NCBI GenBank assembly: GCA_902570155.1 | Contig: CACFXU010000001.1 | Location: forward strand, 62,001 to 126,000 | Length of the DNA stretch: 64,000 nt | Reading direction: 5' to 3' | DNA from: an uncultured Alphaproteobacteria bacterium | GTDB lineage: Bacteria; Pseudomonadota; Alphaproteobacteria; HIMB59; GCA-002718135 | The notes under the pieces: generated by a model | Told to the model about the DNA's origin: nothing | Databases searched by the model: none | What the model saw: the letters and a program-made list of their open reading frames with translations, nothing else | Program-made: the position numbers and the translations under genes | Shown here: in pieces, positions 13,066-20,689 of the stretch | Layout: the number at the start of each line of letters is the position of its first letter | How positions within the stretch are numbered: the first letter of the stretch is position 1

Positions 13066-13220
13066 TAAATTTTACTTTAACTATAAATATTATCTTTTTT
13101 GAACTAAAAAAAGATCTCTTTTAAAAAAAGTTTGTTTATTTAGCTTAATAATTTTGAATTCTTCTAACTCAAATTATCAAATCAATTTATTGATTGCTTA
13201 TAAAGCGGCAGAAACGTTTT

Positions 13221-13266
13221 AGCGTACGAAGGGTTTCGAACCCTCAACTTCAACCTTGGCAAGGTT
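13221..13266 (-). repeat. Decayed copy of the tRNA-Gly 3' half (outer att site)
   Basis: 46 bases match the 3' part of the intact tRNA-Gly (20618-20663) at 42 positions. The anticodon stem-loop (AACCTTGGCAAGGTT on the plus strand) is perfect. The four mismatches fall in the T arm and acceptor strand. The 5' half of a tRNA is absent, so it cannot be a working tRNA. It marks the left end of the island and is more diverged than the copy at 17455. Confidence 0.85.
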
Positions 13267-13442
13267 GGGTTCAAGGATTAATATTTCCTTTTAAAAATTG
13301 GCAATTTACAATACCTTACTATATTTCTGCCACAACTGAGTCACACTAACTATTCCTTAAGTAGCCTTAGTTTCTGGGCATAAGGATGTGAAATATTTTT
13401 TAGGTATACTCATTAAAGGGCAGAGGATATATTGAGTAAGTT

Positions 13443-15446
13443 ATGAATGAGTTTAGAAATATATTACAAAATATATTTGATAATTATTTATTAGATTATC
13501 AAGGACCTTTTGGCAGTGATAAAACCTCCTACAAAGCTTTTTATAAAGTTCAAGATTGGATTAAAGAAAATGCAACAAGTAATAGAGAAGAATTAAATAT
13601 TAAATTCAGTGTTGGTAAAGGAAACTGGACTCAAGTGCCATGGTTTGCAATTTTAAATTCTAAGGAAGCTAAAGATACAAGAAATGGATTTTATATTGTT
13701 GCATTATTTCAACACTCCATGGAAGGTTTTTATTTAGGAATTGGGCAAGGAGTAACAGGGCCAAATGAAAAATATGGCAACAAAGGTGGTGCTGAATATT
13801 TAAAAGAAAAAACAGAAGAAGTAAAAAGGGAAATTGGAGGTTTATTAGATAGTTCATTTACTTTTACAGAAAATATTGACCTTAAAGCAACTGGTGGTGT
13901 AGCTATGGGTTATGGTCCAGGCTTATGTTTTCAAAAATATTATAACAAAGAAAATATACCTAATGATGAAAATATTTTAAAAGATATTAATAACTTGATT
14001 GATGTATATGATAAAATTTTAGAAAATAATATTTCTTCAAATCTATCTAAAAAATCTAATGAAAAGAACTCATGGGTTTTATCTGCAGGAAGAAATGCAG
14101 AATTTTGGGAAAAATTTCAAAACGAACAAATTATTAATATTGGCTGGGATAAACTTGGCAATCTAGCTAAGTTTAAAACTAAGAATGACATAGCTCAAAA
14201 AATTAAAGAATTATACAGAGAAGGGGATGAAGCGGAACCTAGAAATCAGGCTTTAACTTGTTATGAATTTGCAAAAGATATTACTATTGGAGATTTTATT
14301 TATATAAAAAAAGGCTCCTCTAAACTTTTAGGTGTTTGTGAAGTAATCAGTGATTATATTTACGATGAAACTCAAGGGCTTCATCCGCACATAAGAAAAG
14401 TTAAATGGCTTGTAATTAAAGATTTTGATATTCAAAGCGAATTAGGACATACTATTGCTCTTAAAACACTTACTAATTTTACAAGATATCCTGATACAGT
14501 AAAAAAATTTGAACAATTTTATTTTATGCAAGAGAGTACATCTAAAGAAATAGTACAGGAACTGGGTGATTTAGATGAATATAAAAGAACAGCTGAAAGC
14601 TTACTTATTGATACATTTTTTTCATCAAGTGAATTTATTAGAATTTTAAATAATTTGAGAGATAAAAAAAATATTATAATTCAGGGAGCACCTGGTGTTG
14701 GAAAAACTTTTATTGGAAAAAAATTAGCACAATGTTTAGCTAATTCAGAAATGAATATTCAGAGTTTAGTGTTACATGAAAATTATTCCTATGAGGAATT
14801 TGTTATGGGTATAAGACCAGATAAAGATGGAAAATTTATACTATCAAATGGAGTGTTTTACGATTTTTGTCATCGTGCAATAAAAAATCCAAACGAGAAA
14901 TTTATATTACTTTTAGATGAAATCAATAGAGCAAACATTACTAAAATATTTGGAGAATTATTGGTTCTTATTGAGAACAATAAAAGAGGCCCAAAAAATG
15001 CAGTTAAACTAATCTATAAACCTGAAGAAAACTTTTATGTTCCTGAAAATTTTTACATTATAGGGTTAATGAATACTGCAGACCGTTCTCTTAAAGTTGT
15101 TGATTACGCTCTAAGAAGAAGATTTAGTTTTTATACTTTTGAACCAGATTTTGAAAATCCAGAATTTAAAAACTTTCTTATAAAGAAAAAAGTTAATATA
15201 AATACCGTCGATAAAATTATTAGAAACCTAAGCAAGGTTAACCAAAAAATTTCGGATGACAGTTTTGAACTTGGACCAGGGTATTGTATTGGGCATAGTT
15301 TTTTTTGCCCTGAAGATAATAAAGATTCTTATGAAAATGATTGGTATGAAAATATCATCAAAAATCAAATCTTGCCTCTTATAGAAGAATATTATTTTGA
15401 TAAACTTGATACAATAGACGAAATTCGTGAGGATTTATTATCTTGA
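13443..15446 (+). CDS. mcrB: McrB-like restriction protein: MrcB_N + EVE-like + AAA+ motor
   Basis: A 667-residue protein with three parts. Residues ~1-190 match the MrcB_N domain (SYKAFYKVQDWIKENA, then a GKGNWTQVPWFAI strand). Residues ~210-350 look like an EVE/PUA-type reader (SWVLSAGRNAEFWEKF, later IGDFIYIKKGSSKLLGVCEV). Residues ~395-660 are an AAA_5/McrB motor with Walker A GAPGVGKT at 415-422, LLLDEINRAN near 490 and the McrB signature MNTADRS near 543, followed by the arginine-rich ALRRRF. McrB motors hydrolyse GTP and, with McrC, cut DNA with modified cytosine (type IV restriction). Two candidate recognition domains are present. mcrC overlaps by 4 bases. Confidence 0.9.
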   Translation: MNEFRNILQNIFDNYLLDYQGPFGSDKTSYKAFYKVQDWIKENATSNREELNIKFSVGKGNWTQVPWFAILNSKEAKDTRNGFYIVALFQHSMEGFYLGIGQGVTGPNEKYGNKGGAEYLKEKTEEVKREIGGLLDSSFTFTENIDLKATGGVAMGYGPGLCFQKYYNKENIPNDENILKDINNLIDVYDKILENNISSNLSKKSNEKNSWVLSAGRNAEFWEKFQNEQIINIGWDKLGNLAKFKTKNDIAQKIKELYREGDEAEPRNQALTCYEFAKDITIGDFIYIKKGSSKLLGVCEVISDYIYDETQGLHPHIRKVKWLVIKDFDIQSELGHTIALKTLTNFTRYPDTVKKFEQFYFMQESTSKEIVQELGDLDEYKRTAESLLIDTFFSSSEFIRILNNLRDKKNIIIQGAPGVGKTFIGKKLAQCLANSEMNIQSLVLHENYSYEEFVMGIRPDKDGKFILSNGVFYDFCHRAIKNPNEKFILLLDEINRANITKIFGELLVLIENNKRGPKNAVKLIYKPEENFYVPENFYIIGLMNTADRSLKVVDYALRRRFSFYTFEPDFENPEFKNFLIKKKVNINTVDKIIRNLSKVNQKISDDSFELGPGYCIGHSFFCPEDNKDSYENDWYENIIKNQILPLIEEYYFDKLDTIDEIREDLLS

Positions 15447-16486
15447 GCGCAACAATTCCTGTCAGAAATATTTATTATCTCTTTTTATATGCTTGGAATA
15501 AATTTCAAGAAGGAAAATCGCTAGAATTAAATTTAGAAGACAGCCCTGATATTCCAAATTTGTTCTCTAATATATTTGTGAATTCATTAAAAAGGTTAAT
15601 AAAAAGAGGTCTTTATAAAAACTACAAGTCTGAAATTAATGAATTACAATACATAAAAGGAAAAATAAATTTTCCTATTAGTATAAGAAATAATTTTGAG
15701 AATAGAGGAAAAGTATTTTGTGAGTTAGACAGTTTATCAATTGATTCTATACCTAATAAAATAATAAAAAAAACTCTTTTGGAATTACTATCAAATAAAA
15801 ATTTAAAACTTAAATTGAAACAGAATATTAAAATAATTCTAAAGTACTTTGATGAATGTAACGCTCCAGAAACATTAAATAAATATTTTAGTCAATTAAA
15901 ATTAAACAATAGTAACTATTATTATAAATTTCCAATTAACCTGTGTGAATTGATTTATAAAATCCAGCTTCCTACTAGTCAGAAAGGGAGTTTTTTATTT
16001 AAAGATGTTCTTGAGGATGAGATTATAATGTCTGATATTTTTGAAACTTTCGTGAGAAATTTTTATGATATCGAACAAAATAAATTTAAAGTATCAAGAG
16101 ATAAGTTTAAATGGGATTTAATTGCTGAAAGTGGAACCCTTGATTTAATTCCTATGAACATTACTGATATTACGCTAAGAAGTTCAAATAAAACTATAGT
16201 AATTGATACAAAATACTACAAAAACCCTCTTACAACTAGTCAGTATGGAAAGAGTCAAATCAGGCAAGACCACCTAAGACAAATAACATCCTACTTAATG
16301 AATTTTGAAAATAGAGATGGTCCAGACTCAAAAGCTGATGGTATATTATTGTACCCAGAAGTTAAACATCAGGAAAAACTTCATGAGACTTTTCAGTTTC
16401 GAGGGCATAAAGTTTCAATACATAGTTTGAATCTAAATCAAGACTGGCAATCAATCCATAATGATTTGATGGATTTAATTCACTAA
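15443..16486 (+). CDS. mcrC: McrC-like nuclease subunit
   Basis: A 347-residue McrC-family protein, the nuclease partner of McrB. The N-terminus has IPVRNIYYLFLYAWNKF, typical of the family. A middle YIKGKINFPISIRNN segment near residue 72 is also conserved. The C-terminal PD-(D/E)XK nuclease is visible as TLDLIPMNITDITL followed by IVIDTKYYK near 250-258, then a Gln-rich helix (RQDHLRQITSYLMN). It starts within the last codons of mcrB (ATGA-type overlap, with a TTG start at 15443), so translation is coupled. Confidence 0.88.
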   Translation: MSATIPVRNIYYLFLYAWNKFQEGKSLELNLEDSPDIPNLFSNIFVNSLKRLIKRGLYKNYKSEINELQYIKGKINFPISIRNNFENRGKVFCELDSLSIDSIPNKIIKKTLLELLSNKNLKLKLKQNIKIILKYFDECNAPETLNKYFSQLKLNNSNYYYKFPINLCELIYKIQLPTSQKGSFLFKDVLEDEIIMSDIFETFVRNFYDIEQNKFKVSRDKFKWDLIAESGTLDLIPMNITDITLRSSNKTIVIDTKYYKNPLTTSQYGKSQIRQDHLRQITSYLMNFENRDGPDSKADGILLYPEVKHQEKLHETFQFRGHKVSIHSLNLNQDWQSIHNDLMDLIH

Positions 16487-16493
16487 TAAAAAT

Positions 16494-17294
16494 TTATAGT
16501 TTAGCGCCTTGCTCTAAATATGCACAATTTTCGCAGTAAGGATTTCTACTTGGTGTTTCTTTAGACTCAAGAGTGCCTTTCATTTCGATTATTTTATCTT
16601 CTATCCAACTAGTATTGGATTCATAATCAATAAGTGTGATGGTGAAGTTCATTTTAGCATCAAAACTATTTTTTGTTTTAATACCGTTGCATACCATGAA
16701 GTAAGTTGTGTTAGAAACTTCAAAGCCCATTTTTCTTAATATGTGAACATAGATATCCATTTGCATTTTATAACCTTGGTGATACCGACTAGCTAAGTAG
16801 CTTTCTCTTTCTACATCGTATTTAGATGACTGAGCTTTGTAATCAGCGACTACGAGTTTGTTTGTATCCAAATCAAACCACACATCATCAACACCACCTT
16901 GTAAAATTAAATTTGTCTCTTCATCATGATAAGATATCCCGCCCTTAAGAGAATCTCTCCACTTATCTATATCTTCATGTTGATAAGGAATAAAATTTAA
17001 ATTGTAATTTTTGAATATTGGATGAGGCTTATTCCTTTCTCGATAAAAATCAAATTCCTTTTTTAACAAATCATCTACAGTGGTATTAAGAGACCAGCCT
17101 GGCATACTGGGCTCTTGTAAACCCTTAACTCTATCTAAATAAAAACAACGTTTACAATCTATAAAGTTAGAAAATTTAGAACGACTAATTTTAAATTTTT
17201 CATTCTGTCCTGGTAAATAAATTGAGGTTTTTCTTGTTCGCAATCCTTTAGCTTCAGCTAACTCTCCCTTATTATTTTTTTTTATACTTACCAT
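16494..17294 (-). CDS. Cas4/RecB-like PD-(D/E)XK nuclease with Fe-S cysteines
   Basis: A 266-residue stand-alone nuclease. SKFSNFIDCKRCFYLDRVKG near residues 39-59 supplies two Cys, and NPYCENCAYLEQ near 250-262 supplies two more, the layout of a Cas4/AddB-type Fe-S cluster. The catalytic core is GGVDDVWFD near 133, VVADYKAQ near 149 and a Gln/Tyr helix (YHQGYKMQMDIYVHIL) near 169. No cas genes or CRISPR array are nearby. It converges on mcrC with an 7-base gap and is the third gene of the module. It may add a nuclease step to the McrBC response or be independent; this is inference. Confidence 0.75.
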   Translation of the reverse strand: MVSIKKNNKGELAEAKGLRTRKTSIYLPGQNEKFKISRSKFSNFIDCKRCFYLDRVKGLQEPSMPGWSLNTTVDDLLKKEFDFYRERNKPHPIFKNYNLNFIPYQHEDIDKWRDSLKGGISYHDEETNLILQGGVDDVWFDLDTNKLVVADYKAQSSKYDVERESYLASRYHQGYKMQMDIYVHILRKMGFEVSNTTYFMVCNGIKTKNSFDAKMNFTITLIDYESNTSWIEDKIIEMKGTLESKETPSRNPYCENCAYLEQGAKL

Positions 17295-17370
17295 CTTTAA
17301 TTAAATTATAACAATATTCCCAAAAAGGTTAAGGGAGTTATGTTTATTACTATAGATAAAATAAATTTCT

Positions 17371-17387
17371 GTCACACTGGTGTCACA
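17371..17387. repeat. Short inverted GTCACAC/TGTCACA motif near module 1 right end
   Basis: GTCACAC (17371) and TGTCACA (17381) sit close together 68 bases left of the inner tRNA fragment. A GTCACACT also occurs at 13340-13347, 74 bases right of the outer fragment. Similar spacing from each att copy suggests a recombinase arm-type site. The motif is short, so chance cannot be excluded. Confidence 0.3.
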
Positions 17388-17454
17388 ATAAGGATTTAAA
17401 ATTAAAAAGTTTTGAAAAAAACTTAACAGACAAAAGAGAGGGTTTGTGGGGTTT

Positions 17455-17505
17455 ATTGGAGCGGGCGAAGGGATTCGAACCCTCGACTTCAACCTTGGCA
17501 AGGTT
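17455..17505 (-). repeat. Perfect 51-base copy of the tRNA-Gly 3' half (inner att site)
   Basis: These 51 bases are identical to 20613-20663, covering the CCA end, acceptor 3' strand, T arm, variable loop and anticodon stem-loop of tRNA-Gly(GCC). Identity stops exactly at the 5' edge of the anticodon stem, as expected for a tyrosine recombinase that crosses over in the anticodon loop. The rest of the tRNA is missing. Confidence 0.95.
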
Positions 17506-17572
17506 ACCGAGTACGAACGATCACCACAAATTCCTAAGTAATGAATATCTTATTTTCCCATAATTGAACACA

Positions 17573-17592
17573 AACTACTGCACAACTACTGC
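17573..17592. repeat. ACTACTGC doublet near left end of module 2
   Basis: The sequence AACTACTGCACAACTACTGC is a tandem doublet of AACTACTGC with one or two spacer bases. A closely related doublet lies at 20571-20590 near the other end of the same module. Paired repeats at both ends fit recombinase arm-binding sites. Confidence 0.45.
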
Positions 17593-17642
17593 ATGAACTT
17601 GGTTCTATTGATAGTAAAGGTGTTTAATGTTAAGCTGAAATT

Positions 17643-17726
17643 ATGGTTTGTAAATTAAAACCTCTAAAGATAATGAGTCTCTGGAATCTGAAGGATAAAG
17701 ATTTTACTCCACGGTCAGTGAGTTGA
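17643..17726 (+). CDS. Possible 27-residue leader peptide before the restriction genes
   Basis: An ATG at 17643 opens a 27-codon frame (starts MVCKLKPLKIMSLWN, stop TGA 17724-17726), 7 bases upstream of the restriction-modification start. No strong ribosome-binding site is seen. It could be a leader or simply a chance frame in the 440-base gap 17295-17733, which otherwise holds the tRNA fragment and the doublet repeat. Reported with low confidence. Confidence 0.15.
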   Translation: MVCKLKPLKIMSLWNLKDKDFTPRSVS

Positions 17727-17733
17727 TTAAGAT

Positions 17734-19551
17734 ATGAATAGGTTTGAAATAATAGAAAAAATTGGGAAAAATTTTTTTGTTACTAATTTAGAAACCGGTG
17801 AATTTAGTTACAGGAAAGCATTAAAAAATGTGGGTAAGTCTATTGATGATAAACTAATTTTATCTAACAAAAAAACAAAACACTCTGATTTAGATATTAG
17901 ATTTGAAGCTAATGGTGTTAGTGTTTTAGTTGAGACAAAAAAAGATTTTGATAAAACCTCTCTAGAGGGTTCACTGATACAGTTGCAAGCTTATGTAAAT
18001 TACGAAAAAGTTTTAACAGGAAATAAATTAATTGCTATATTGGCAAATACCCAAGATGACAGAATAAAAGTATGGTGGGGTAGCGATTTAACAATTGATG
18101 AATCTCATCAAATAAAAAATCAATATAAATTAAAATCTTTTGAAGAATATGCTGATATATATCTGGGAACAAAAAATGATAGGGAGCAGGTTTTAAAAAG
18201 CACTTATTATCTTAACGAACTACTTCACAAATACGGGATAAATGAAAAAATAAGAAGCCAATTTGTAGGCACTTGTTTGCTGGCACTAAAAAATGGATTA
18301 TCTTATGAAAACTTAACTGCAAAACAAATAGTTGCTGGAATTGAAGAGGTCATAATACGTTTATTAAATACTGATTTAAATAAAGCTTTCAAACTAGGAA
18401 TTTTGAAAGATAGAGTTTTAGAGTCTCAAGATGTTCGATCCTTAACAAAAGAGGGTCTTCAGGATATTTTAAGGTTTATCGAAAAAAGTATTTTACCATA
18501 CATCAATGACAAAAGTACCATGGGTCAAGACATATTAAATTTATTTTTTACAACGTTTAATAAATATGTTGGTAAGGCAGATAAAAATCAAGCTTTCACA
18601 CCAGATCACATTGTGCATTTTATGTGCCAAGTATTAGGAATTAATAGAAATTCAAAGGTCTTAGATCCATGTTGTGGAAGTGGAGCTTTTCTAGTTAGGG
18701 CTATGACAGAGGCAATGGATGATTGTTCAAATGAATCAGAGAGAGAGGTATTTAAAAAGAAAAATATCTTTGGAATTGAATATGAAGAAAATGCTTTTGG
18801 TTTATCAACAACTAATATGCTTATTCATAGTGATGGAAATTCAAACATCAGACAAGGTAATTGCTTTGAGATGAATAAATTTATTGAAGAAGCAAATATT
18901 AATATTGTTTTAATGAATCCACCTTTTAATGCTCAACGCAAGCATTGTAATCCCCCATATGTTAAAACGTGGGATAGCAAAATAAAACAGGATCCTTCGA
19001 AAGGTCTTCATTATGTTGATTATGTTATGTCTTTGGTTAAGACTGGAAAATTAGCTGTATTACTTCCAATGGCATGTGCAATAGGTAACTCAGGTGATAT
19101 TAGAAAGTTTAAAGAAAAGATATTAGAAGAACATACTTTAGATGCAGTTTTTTCTTTACCGCCAGATGTATTTCATCCTGGCGCCAATGCAAGTGTGTGT
19201 TGTATGGTTTTCGAACTAGGCAAACGTCATGAAAAAACAAATAAAGAAACTTTTTTTGGATATTATAGAAATGATGGTTTTTTTAAAAAAAAAAACTTAG
19301 GTAGAATTGAAAAAAATAAACCAGGATCAAATGAGGGTATTTGGGCGGACATAGAATCAAGGTGGTTAAATCTTTATAAAGATAGAAAAACAGTTACAGG
19401 AATTTCCATAACTCATAAGATAACAGCTAGCGATGAATGGCTTGCGGAAGCATATATGGAAACAGACTACTCTACTTTAGAAAAAAAAGATTTTATAAAA
19501 ACAATCAAGAAGTTTGTAGCACATCGATATACAGAGGATGATGATAATTAA
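17734..19551 (+). CDS. BcgI-like restriction-modification subunit A (nuclease-methyltransferase fusion)
   Basis: A 605-residue fusion. The N-terminal ~110 residues form a PD-(D/E)XK nuclease: HSDLDIRF (Asp52/Asp54) then VLVETKK (Glu67-x-Lys69). The C-terminal part is an N6-adenine methyltransferase of HsdM type, with motif I VLDPCCGSGAF near residue 309 and catalytic NPPF at 395-398. The length and order match BcgIA, the A subunit of the type IIB enzyme BcgI, which cuts on both sides of its site and methylates adenine. The absence of a separate HsdR motor supports this over type I. It overlaps the specificity gene by 14 bases. Confidence 0.85.
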   Translation: MNRFEIIEKIGKNFFVTNLETGEFSYRKALKNVGKSIDDKLILSNKKTKHSDLDIRFEANGVSVLVETKKDFDKTSLEGSLIQLQAYVNYEKVLTGNKLIAILANTQDDRIKVWWGSDLTIDESHQIKNQYKLKSFEEYADIYLGTKNDREQVLKSTYYLNELLHKYGINEKIRSQFVGTCLLALKNGLSYENLTAKQIVAGIEEVIIRLLNTDLNKAFKLGILKDRVLESQDVRSLTKEGLQDILRFIEKSILPYINDKSTMGQDILNLFFTTFNKYVGKADKNQAFTPDHIVHFMCQVLGINRNSKVLDPCCGSGAFLVRAMTEAMDDCSNESEREVFKKKNIFGIEYEENAFGLSTTNMLIHSDGNSNIRQGNCFEMNKFIEEANINIVLMNPPFNAQRKHCNPPYVKTWDSKIKQDPSKGLHYVDYVMSLVKTGKLAVLLPMACAIGNSGDIRKFKEKILEEHTLDAVFSLPPDVFHPGANASVCCMVFELGKRHEKTNKETFFGYYRNDGFFKKKNLGRIEKNKPGSNEGIWADIESRWLNLYKDRKTVTGISITHKITASDEWLAEAYMETDYSTLEKKDFIKTIKKFVAHRYTEDDDN

Positions 19552-20536
19552 TTTTTCAAAACTATCAGATATTTTTGAGATTGTTTATGGGGTAAATTTA
19601 GAACTTTATGAATTAGAACAAGTATCAGCCAAAGAAGGGATTCCGTTTGTAAGCAGAACTTCACAAAATAATGGTGTTTCAGCTTATGTAATGAAAATAG
19701 ATGATCTCGAACCAAATCCTGGACACACTTTATCAGTTGCTGGTGGTGGATCAGTTTTAGAAACATTTTATCAATCAAAACAATTTTACAGCGGTAGAGA
19801 TTTATATTACTTAAAACCCATATCCTCTCTAAGTGAAAAGGAAATGCTAATTTATTGTACTCTAATATATGAGAACAAATATAAATTTAGTTATGGTAGA
19901 CAGGCAAACAAATCTCTAGGGGATTTGAGGTTACCAAGTATTGATGAGGTAAAAAAAATTGCAAGAAATATTGAATATCCAAAAACTCCAATAACTAAAT
20001 CAAAATCATCTAATAGTGTTTCACTAAAAAAAGACGAATGGAAAAGTTTTTATGTTCATGAAATTTTTAAAGTAATTAGAGGTGTAAGTTCTGTAAATTT
20101 AGATTTGTCAGAAATTAAAGATGAAAATTACAACCTTTTATATTTAAGACCATCAAATAATTATAATTTGATTGGAGGTTTCTTAGATAAAAAAACGAAC
20201 AAAGAAACTATTTTTCCAAGAGGATCCCTTGTCATGGGTAATACAGGTGAGGGAAGTCATACATATTGTTACATAGCAAGTGAGGAATTCATACCAAATA
20301 ATAATTTATCTGTGCTTCAATTTAAAGATGGTAATAAAAATATATATCATAAACTTTTTTTAATACCCATTATTGAACATAATCGCTATAGATATGCGTA
20401 TGGAAGAATACCTAGTAATACTAGGTTTTTAAATTCAAAATTAAAGTTACCTGTAGACAGTAAAAGTTCAATAGACTGGGTGTTTATGGAGAACTATATA
20501 AAAACTCTACCTGGTAGTAATTTTAAATTTAACTAA
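19538..20536 (+). CDS. BcgI-like specificity subunit B
   Basis: A 332-residue S-type subunit with two target-recognition domains. The first half contains YGVNLELYELEQ, FVSRTSQNNGVSAYV and the conserved FYSGRDLYYLKP...YGRQANKSLGDLRLP. The second half repeats the plan with FKVIRGVSSVNLDLSEI and YAYGRIPSNTRFLNSKLKLP. The twin layout implies a bipartite DNA target. Length is close to BcgIB (about 340 residues). It is translationally coupled to the upstream fused subunit. The recognition sequence cannot be read from the protein. Confidence 0.85.
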   Translation: MMIINFSKLSDIFEIVYGVNLELYELEQVSAKEGIPFVSRTSQNNGVSAYVMKIDDLEPNPGHTLSVAGGGSVLETFYQSKQFYSGRDLYYLKPISSLSEKEMLIYCTLIYENKYKFSYGRQANKSLGDLRLPSIDEVKKIARNIEYPKTPITKSKSSNSVSLKKDEWKSFYVHEIFKVIRGVSSVNLDLSEIKDENYNLLYLRPSNNYNLIGGFLDKKTNKETIFPRGSLVMGNTGEGSHTYCYIASEEFIPNNNLSVLQFKDGNKNIYHKLFLIPIIEHNRYRYAYGRIPSNTRFLNSKLKLPVDSKSSIDWVFMENYIKTLPGSNFKFN

Positions 20537-20570
20537 GAATTATCAAGCATAATTAATAAACTTTATCTAT

Positions 20571-20590
20571 ACTACTGCGTAACTACTGCG
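20571..20590. repeat. ACTACTGC doublet near right end of module 2
   Basis: The sequence ACTACTGCGTAACTACTGCG is a tandem doublet differing from the one at 17573-17592 mainly by CA to GT/GC in the spacer. It lies 22 bases left of the tRNA-Gly identity block. It is interpreted as the second arm-type site of the module. Confidence 0.45.
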
Positions 20591-20614
20591 CAATGATCAG
20601 GATTTAAAGATAAT

Positions 20615-20689
20615 TGGAGCGGGCGAAGGGATTCGAACCCTCGACTTCAACCTTGGCAAGGTTGCGCTCTACCCCTGAGCTACGCCCGC
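20615..20689 (-). tRNA. tRNA-Gly (anticodon GCC), CCA encoded
   Basis: The minus strand folds into a complete cloverleaf. Acceptor GCGGGCG pairs with CGCCCGC, the D arm is GCTCAGGGGTAGAGC, the anticodon stem-loop is AACCTTGCCAAGGTT with GCC at 20655-20657, the T arm is CGAGGGTTCGAATCCCTTCG, and the discriminator T is followed by encoded CCA. It lies 54 bases downstream of the blh stop on the same strand. This gene is the integration target of the island on its 3' side. Confidence 0.97.

Follow-up and report, generated by a model that had tools for sequence, protein, structure and literature searches.

Gene cassettes without integrases at a tRNA-Gly gene of an uncultured alphaproteobacterium: matched arm pairs and probable movement in trans within a genus-wide pool

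How do two small gene modules come to lie one behind the other at a single tRNA-Gly gene when neither carries a recombinase? The question is raised by a 64,000-nucleotide stretch from an uncultured Alphaproteobacteria bacterium (assembly GCA_902570155.1, contig CACFXU010000001.1, positions 62,001–126,000; hereafter, the window), whose genome (G000; 1.5 Mb in 47 contigs) is 89% complete. The only tRNA of the window identified by ARAGORN, an intact tRNA-Gly(GCC) at 20615–20689 on the minus strand, is the attachment (att) site, and on its 3′ side lie two integrase-less cassettes bordered by att copies: cassette 2 (17506–20612; 3.1 kb) and, beyond it, cassette 1 (13267–17454; 4.2 kb). Annotated open reading frames and Pfam matches show no recombinase gene between the att copies. 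The very probable answer is that both modules belong to a pool of non-autonomous cassettes spanning the genus, and that integrases that match their arm sites move them in trans.

A repeat search of the window yields one three-copy family, all on the minus strand: the 3′ half of the tRNA gene (20613–20663), which doubles as the att core on the right of cassette 2; a copy identical at 51/51 positions, common to cassettes 1 and 2 (17455–17505); and the oldest recognisable copy, at the left end of cassette 1 (13216–13266), identical at 44/51 positions (86%; 42/46 over 13221–13266). The copies stop at the outer edge of the anticodon stem (AACCTT-GGC-AAGGTT), and the anticodon-stem palindrome AACCTTGGCAAGGTT is undamaged in the copy at 13216–13266. 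An att pattern of 34 bases, with at most three mismatches allowed, matches the window three times and 100 dinucleotide shuffles not at all; chance or low complexity as the source of the repeats is ruled out by this control. An assembly artefact is unlikely, because arrays of this kind are seen in many genomes, on contigs of up to 884 kb. No further att copies are found elsewhere in the whole genome of the window. An earlier note on this DNA, made from the letters alone, had described two modules closed by extra tRNA-Gly 3′ halves of 51/51 and 42/46 identity, with identity ending at the edge of the anticodon stem and no recombinase inside; the repeat search reproduces these values exactly, and the other two statements hold as well.

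We searched for the att half in 102 genomes of the genus and read 92 loci of at most 20 kb; the genomes surveyed are incomplete (53–96%), and cassettes within one group are non-independent observations. The loci hold 191 copies of the tRNA-Gly 3′ half, with none on the opposite strand. Extra copies, one to four per locus, are present in 57 of the 79 loci that have an intact tRNA and at least 2.5 kb on its 3′ side (0 copies in 22 loci, 1 in 30, 2 in 20, 3 in 5, and 4 in 2). The delimited cassettes (n = 99) have a median length of 1.3 kb, and 34 are shorter than 1 kb. The tRNA-Gly gene is identical at 75/75 positions in the sister-genome loci where it is complete, and most loci show synteny in their left chromosomal flank. 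One genome, G083, has an empty site, where a left-flank gene begins ~170 bp away from the tRNA and nothing lies in the interval, and different cassette combinations occupy the same place in related genomes. The mismatches of the window copies, moving away from the tRNA, are 0, 0, and 4; decay of att copies also grows with distance genus-wide, although weakly (rho 0.23, p 0.027). Both trends bear out the earlier suggestion of successive site-specific insertions, with the newest beside the tRNA, and the comparison of tRNA flanks in related genomes turns up empty sites, exchanges of cargo, and borders lying exactly at the att copies: the cassette behaviour that had been proposed.

The borders between species are exact. 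From position 17455 onwards, the stretch with cassette 2 matches a cassette of G066 at 99.6% identity over 3,182 bp, although the backbone of G066 is only 79% identical, and the match begins and ends at the att copies. The right-end 386 bp of cassette 2 (sampled) recur at 99.5% identity in G093 (backbone, 82%), followed there, through an intact att, by a different cassette. Cassette pairs at least 95% identical between genomes number 56 (pairs non-independent); none keeps more than background identity beyond the left att, and the same generally holds beyond the right att, except where the tRNA follows in both. Other recurring cassettes show 94–99% identity between genomes with flanks 78–82% identical. 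Duplication of the tRNA without mobility is ruled out by the swapped cargo and by the difference between cassette and backbone identity; vertical inheritance of an old array is ruled out for cassette 2, for the alternative oxidase cassettes, for the 558/580-bp cassettes, and for many sulfotransferase pairs. Among the pooled 1285/1320-bp cassettes, 35/66 pairs have a cassette identity that trails flank identity by more than 2 points; our reading is that the pool mixes two diverged sub-types.

In most cassettes, a tandem pair of 7–10-base repeats with a period of ~11 lies inside each end. The motif varies by group (GTCACA, CTACTGC, GTGTCCC, GTGGGACG, TGGAGCG, TGTCGGA, GGCTACTT, TGACGCG, and others) and matches left to right within a cassette. 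The control was a permutation in which the left end of one cassette was set against the right ends of others; it was repeated with each end cluster represented by a single cassette, and the left/right match is then 20.7 within the same cassette vs. 12.9 for different cassettes (p ≤ 5e-5). A strict tandem-pair match is seen in 60/98 cassettes vs. 12 expected. Scanning both strands of the window with at most one mismatch gives exactly two GTCACA pairs, both at the ends of cassette 1 (GCCACAactgaGTCACA, 13329–13345, and GTCACActggtGTCACA, 17371–17387), and exactly two CTACTGC pairs, both at the ends of cassette 2 (CTACTGCacaaCTACTGC, 17575–17592, and CTACTGCgtaaCTACTGC, 20572–20589), all on the plus strand. 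Owing to a mismatch in one half-site, cassette 1 does not pass the strict test; its pair is still found by the motif scan. In a lambda-like attP, the core has arm sites on either side, to which the integrase binds with its N-terminal domain; by analogy, the matched terminal pairs have the layout of putative integrase arm sites, that is, a lambda-like attP architecture.

The pattern is independently replicated at tRNA-Gln(TTG) and tRNA-Arg(ACG), where the genus has like arrays of tandem 3′ halves (L228–L242), and the sampled cassettes (n = 28) have matched arm pairs of their own (p ≤ 5e-5). The genome of the window itself holds a second small array at tRNA-Gln (G000:C2:51289–52342; L235), with TTGGTCAC-type arms. 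Composite cassettes with a different arm motif at each end are also seen at tRNA-Gly (L049, L080, L054, and L093); at L093, in G066, the right att is interrupted within GGGATTCGAA and fused to other sequence.

Which enzymes could use these sites? Integrases of family PF00589 lie inside nine arrays, in elements of 5–14 kb at the same tRNA, so that a tyrosine recombinase at this att, as looked for by the earlier note, is present in the genus; no phage record or IMG/VR contig showed one beside this att half. Group A1 comprises six of these integrases (78–94% identical to the first), and in all six a GTCACA pair adjoins the start codon, upstream; a second, more diverse group has three members. Integrase-bearing members with the same arms as cassette 1 thus stand at the same tRNA. 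In the A1 family, GTCAC-N6/7-GTCAC is found 17–36 bp upstream of the start codon in 16/17 integrases checked, and the relatives sharing the pair extend down to ~41% identity and to other Alphaproteobacteria; tRNA-Phe or tRNA-Arg is the site for some of them. Integrase relatives from the tRNA-Gly loci stand in records with the names Pelagibacteraceae bacterium or uncultured Alphaproteobacteria and AG- numbers; from this naming, we take those numbered AG- as single-cell genomes.

The arm motif thus goes with the integrase family, and the core with the tRNA. Since the motif tracks the family and cassette 1 bears GTCACA, cassette 1 is a predicted substrate of the A1 integrases. The catalytic residues R-K-H-R-H-Y are conserved in the A1 family; the AlphaFold model of A1 shows a beta-beta-beta-alpha N-terminal domain and a whole fold like that of the Tn1549 and lambda integrases; and another integrase member gives a weak match to Arm-DNA-bind_4. 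The putative helper would, on this model, have both features of the lambda/Tn916 type, an arm-binding N-terminal domain and the catalytic residues. For module 1, and for it alone, elements of sister genomes that carry an integrase at this tRNA are the likely helpers; the earlier proposal that mobility comes from elsewhere stands to that extent, and no helper was found for the arm type of module 2.

Fragments of a closely related integrase, next to TGGAGCG arms, differ from the integrase whose closest arms are TGTCGG chiefly over residues 1–34 (59–65% identity, against 92–95% over residues 35–83). These N-terminal fragments, of 82–130 aa, lie beside the right att in four integrase-less cassettes of the TGGAGCG type (L043, L044, L053, and L089), which are apparently deletion derivatives of integrase-bearing elements. 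Integrase-bearing elements also code for a 491-aa protein (L053:3106–4578, minus strand; also L102) that has no Pfam match and matches phrog_4756; our guess, by eye, is that it has polymerase-like motifs (DFSTMSLRLLY, IHDSF). Some elements (L046, L053, L059, L084, L138, and L139) have a copy of tRNA-Gly that is complete or nearly so and thus supply both halves; at L138/L139, the integrase element sits between two complete tRNA-Gly genes.

The proposed mechanism is as follows. A cassette would consist of an attP with the tRNA-Gly 3′ half as its core, a private tandem arm pair per end, and one to few genes, and a fuller element with matching arm sites would supply a lambda/Tn916-type tyrosine recombinase. 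The N-terminal domain of this integrase would bind the arm pairs, its core-binding and catalytic domains would bind the anticodon stem-loop palindrome, and the enzyme would recombine the cassette attP with the tRNA gene. The newly arrived 3′ half would restore the tRNA, and the previous one would be displaced outwards, hence tandem accretion in a single orientation, with the newest cassette beside the tRNA. The arm motif would serve as an address that sets which integrase moves which cassette, and the shared core would let different address groups use one tRNA. We infer that cassettes are excised, pass through circular intermediates, are used in trans, and enter new cells.

Several observations weigh against this account. 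Neither an excised circle nor an integration event was observed. The strict arm test is failed by 38/98 cassettes, some of them mosaics with unlike arms, others with weaker pairs. A search of the genus for an integrase with CTACTGC arms gave none, which leaves cassette 2 without an identified helper, and the window's own genome, at 89% completeness, contains no candidate helper; its sole PF00589 protein is the product of a conserved chromosomal gene on another contig (G000:C3 = L225:2423–3553, minus strand). Finally, as the leftmost att of cassette 1 is decayed outside the anticodon stem-loop, this cassette may no longer be excisable.

Could the modules instead be immobile remnants of complete integrase-bearing islands that later lost the integrase, similar to cis-mobilizable elements (CIMEs)? 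The integrase fragments of 82–130 aa retained by four TGGAGCG-type cassettes, the stronger decay of older att copies, and the mosaics with mismatched arms are consistent with this. However, integrase-less cassettes of 0.56–3.2 kb recur with att borders at 95–99.6% identity in different species and array contexts, and therefore travelled in integrase-less form; deletion probably accounts for the origin of the cassettes, not for their present state, and we consider the remnant explanation unlikely. Uptake of chromosomal DNA and homologous exchange across the flanks or the tRNA repeats would need no site-specific recombinase at all, and it is possible in that most loci have syntenic flanks; recombination in SAR11 is reported as frequent (PMC7542561). 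Still, the shared repeat is merely ~51 bp, identity outside the att falls to background at once in pairs more than 95% identical, opposite-orientation copies do not occur, and the matched arm pairs would be left without a role, all of which makes this explanation highly improbable.

Phage satellites, i.e., cassettes mobilised and packaged by a pelagiphage integrating at tRNA-Gly, would account for the tRNA 3′-half att, typical of phage and satellite integrases, and for the phage-type DNA primase coded by one integrase-bearing element; marine satellites are already known (PMC11389934, PMC10803314). Searches of IMG/VR and INPHARED by att, arm, and integrase nevertheless gave nothing relevant as to a phage helper. 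No phage record or IMG/VR contig has this att half beside an integrase, the A1 arm sequence is in no IMG/VR contig, the closest phage integrases are 24–36% identical, and phage genes are not seen in most elements. The two exact att matches in the phage collections are a complete ordinary tRNA-Gly in a GC-rich contig and the end of a tRNA-rich 169-kb contig. The helper phage of the earlier note is thus not supported, and the satellite explanation is improbable, although a phage could still serve as the vehicle without conflict with the recombination mechanism. One-gene cassettes and tandem accretion also resemble an integron, and the window's genome does hold one conserved tyrosine recombinase (376 aa; 365 aa in most relatives) that might move integron-type or Xer-type cassettes. 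This protein meets no integron integrase model at cut-off, falls far below the XerC/XerD cut-offs, has no match to an arm-binding domain, and does not adjoin the array; moreover, the site is a tRNA half rather than attC, and matched arm pairs are foreign to Xer and IntI sites, so that we find this explanation scarcely credible.

The window modules contain defence genes. Cassette 1 codes, on the plus strand, for an McrB-like GTPase subunit (13443–15446, 667 aa; Pfam MrcB_N 2.9e-37 and AAA_5 1.6e-25; PDB McrB 9e-89) and an McrC-like subunit (15443–16486, 347 aa; PF10117 5e-38; McrC model 9e-86, under that model's cut-off), and, on the minus strand, for a protein of the PD-(D/E)XK nuclease superfamily (16494–17294, 266 aa; PF12705 1.8e-10), whose gene has a homologue, with 76% nucleotide identity, within the integrase-bearing element of G056. 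Cassette 2 codes, on the plus strand, for an N6-adenine methyltransferase of the Type IIG restriction–modification (R-M) type (17734–19551, 605 aa; PF02384 1.5e-33; PADLOC REase_MTase_IIG 2.9e-59), with a candidate N-terminal nuclease motif recognised by eye, and for an R-M specificity (S) subunit (19538–20536, 332 aa; PF01420 1.9e-16; PADLOC Specificity_II 1.7e-49). Relatives of the methyltransferase in four viral contigs are ~60% identical, which is uninformative on mobility. To the left of the oldest att copy, 13185–13215 may be a right-end remnant of a third, older element, similar to the right end of an integrase-bearing cassette of G022 (end cluster RE9; weak single-pair match).

The pool as a whole is not a family of defence cassettes, as the earlier note had it: most cargo is not defence, which is one class among several (cargo is annotated for representatives only and gives no exact defence fraction). 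Defence cargo includes R-M systems of types I, II-like, and III, McrBC, DndB-like and HNH proteins, and candidate systems. Other cargo includes sulfotransferases, the commonest; alternative oxidase with a flavodoxin-fold protein; an EgtD-like methyltransferase; a carbamoyltransferase; major facilitator superfamily (MFS) and MMPL proteins; and many unknowns. The commonest units (L042, L044, L058, L100, and others) are 1285-/1320-bp single-gene sulfotransferase cassettes and 558/580-bp cassettes coding for a protein of 86–99 aa, with its family unassigned; those with alternative oxidase and the flavodoxin-fold protein also rank among the commonest.

Pelagibacteraceae are very abundant ocean bacteria, and SAR11 genomes are small; to our knowledge, few prophages are reported in SAR11, and the exchange of accessory genes is poorly understood. 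Pelagibacteraceae appear to swap genes, phage defences included, by an integron-like route without an integron. A broader proposal, which could as well fail as hold, is an economy of cassettes that share integrases: several integrase families with different arm addresses would use the same tRNA cores; a far larger pool of integrase-less cassettes with one or a few genes and one address each would move in trans between cells; and new address groups would arise by joint change of the N-terminal domain and the arm sites, since the divergence of the arm sites parallels that of the first ~34 residues of the integrase. If true, a tRNA-based system with the integrase acting in trans would explain the turnover of defence systems and single metabolic genes in SAR11. 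The rule that the same arm pair stands at both ends would find mobile cassettes that, having no mobility gene, escape integrase-based searches, and the arrays form a natural data set on site choice by the arm-binding domains of tyrosine integrases.

Tandem accretion at tRNA genes is known already, from additive islands and CIMEs. In the open-access literature we found no paper on this tRNA-Gly locus, and no description that brings together minimal cassettes without an integrase, arm pairs that are private and matched, and a motif in those arms from which the integrase family can be predicted. Additive flexible genomic islands (fGIs), such as Alteromonas fGI1 (PMC4119200) and Methylophilaceae fGI-2, with the last 20 bp of tRNA-Lys repeated (PMC10872708), share with the present arrays a conserved tRNA target, tandem addition that leaves repeats of the tRNA 3′ end, and presence or absence varying between strains; here, too, the target is a tRNA with 3′-end repeats, and different cassettes occupy the same place. 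In the passages cited for them, the cassettes are large, or the repeats alone are reported, whereas here the median is 1.3 kb, often with one gene, the integrase is usually absent, the arm pairs are private and matched, and the arm motif is linked to the integrase family. CIMEs, in the accretion of integrative and conjugative (ICE) or mobilizable (IME) elements, likewise retain att sites without integration or transfer genes and accrete in tandem (PMC5704250). The window modules also have both att sites and no integrase or transfer genes, and no conjugation genes were recognised in the annotated subset of cassettes and elements. However, CIMEs are described as decayed ICEs or IMEs moved in cis with a neighbour (PMC5704250); integrase-bearing cassettes that could be such neighbours are present in some arrays, not in the window's own genome, and the spread of integrase-less cassettes as units among species indicates action in trans.

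Tycheposons, as described in PMC10872708, resemble these arrays in their occurrence in streamlined marine genomes, tRNA attachment, tyrosine recombinases, and swappable cargo, but measure 4–200 kb and have a recombinase of their own, while the window modules, of 4.2 and 3.1 kb, have none. Integrons and clusters of attC sites lacking integrases (CALINs) are also tandem short cassettes, mostly without an integrase and moved in trans (PMC11389934). The window array has neither attC nor an integron integrase; in place of attC and IntI, the cassettes described here have a tRNA 3′ half with arm sites and, as the proposed partner, a lambda/Tn916-type integrase, and they insert at the tRNA gene.

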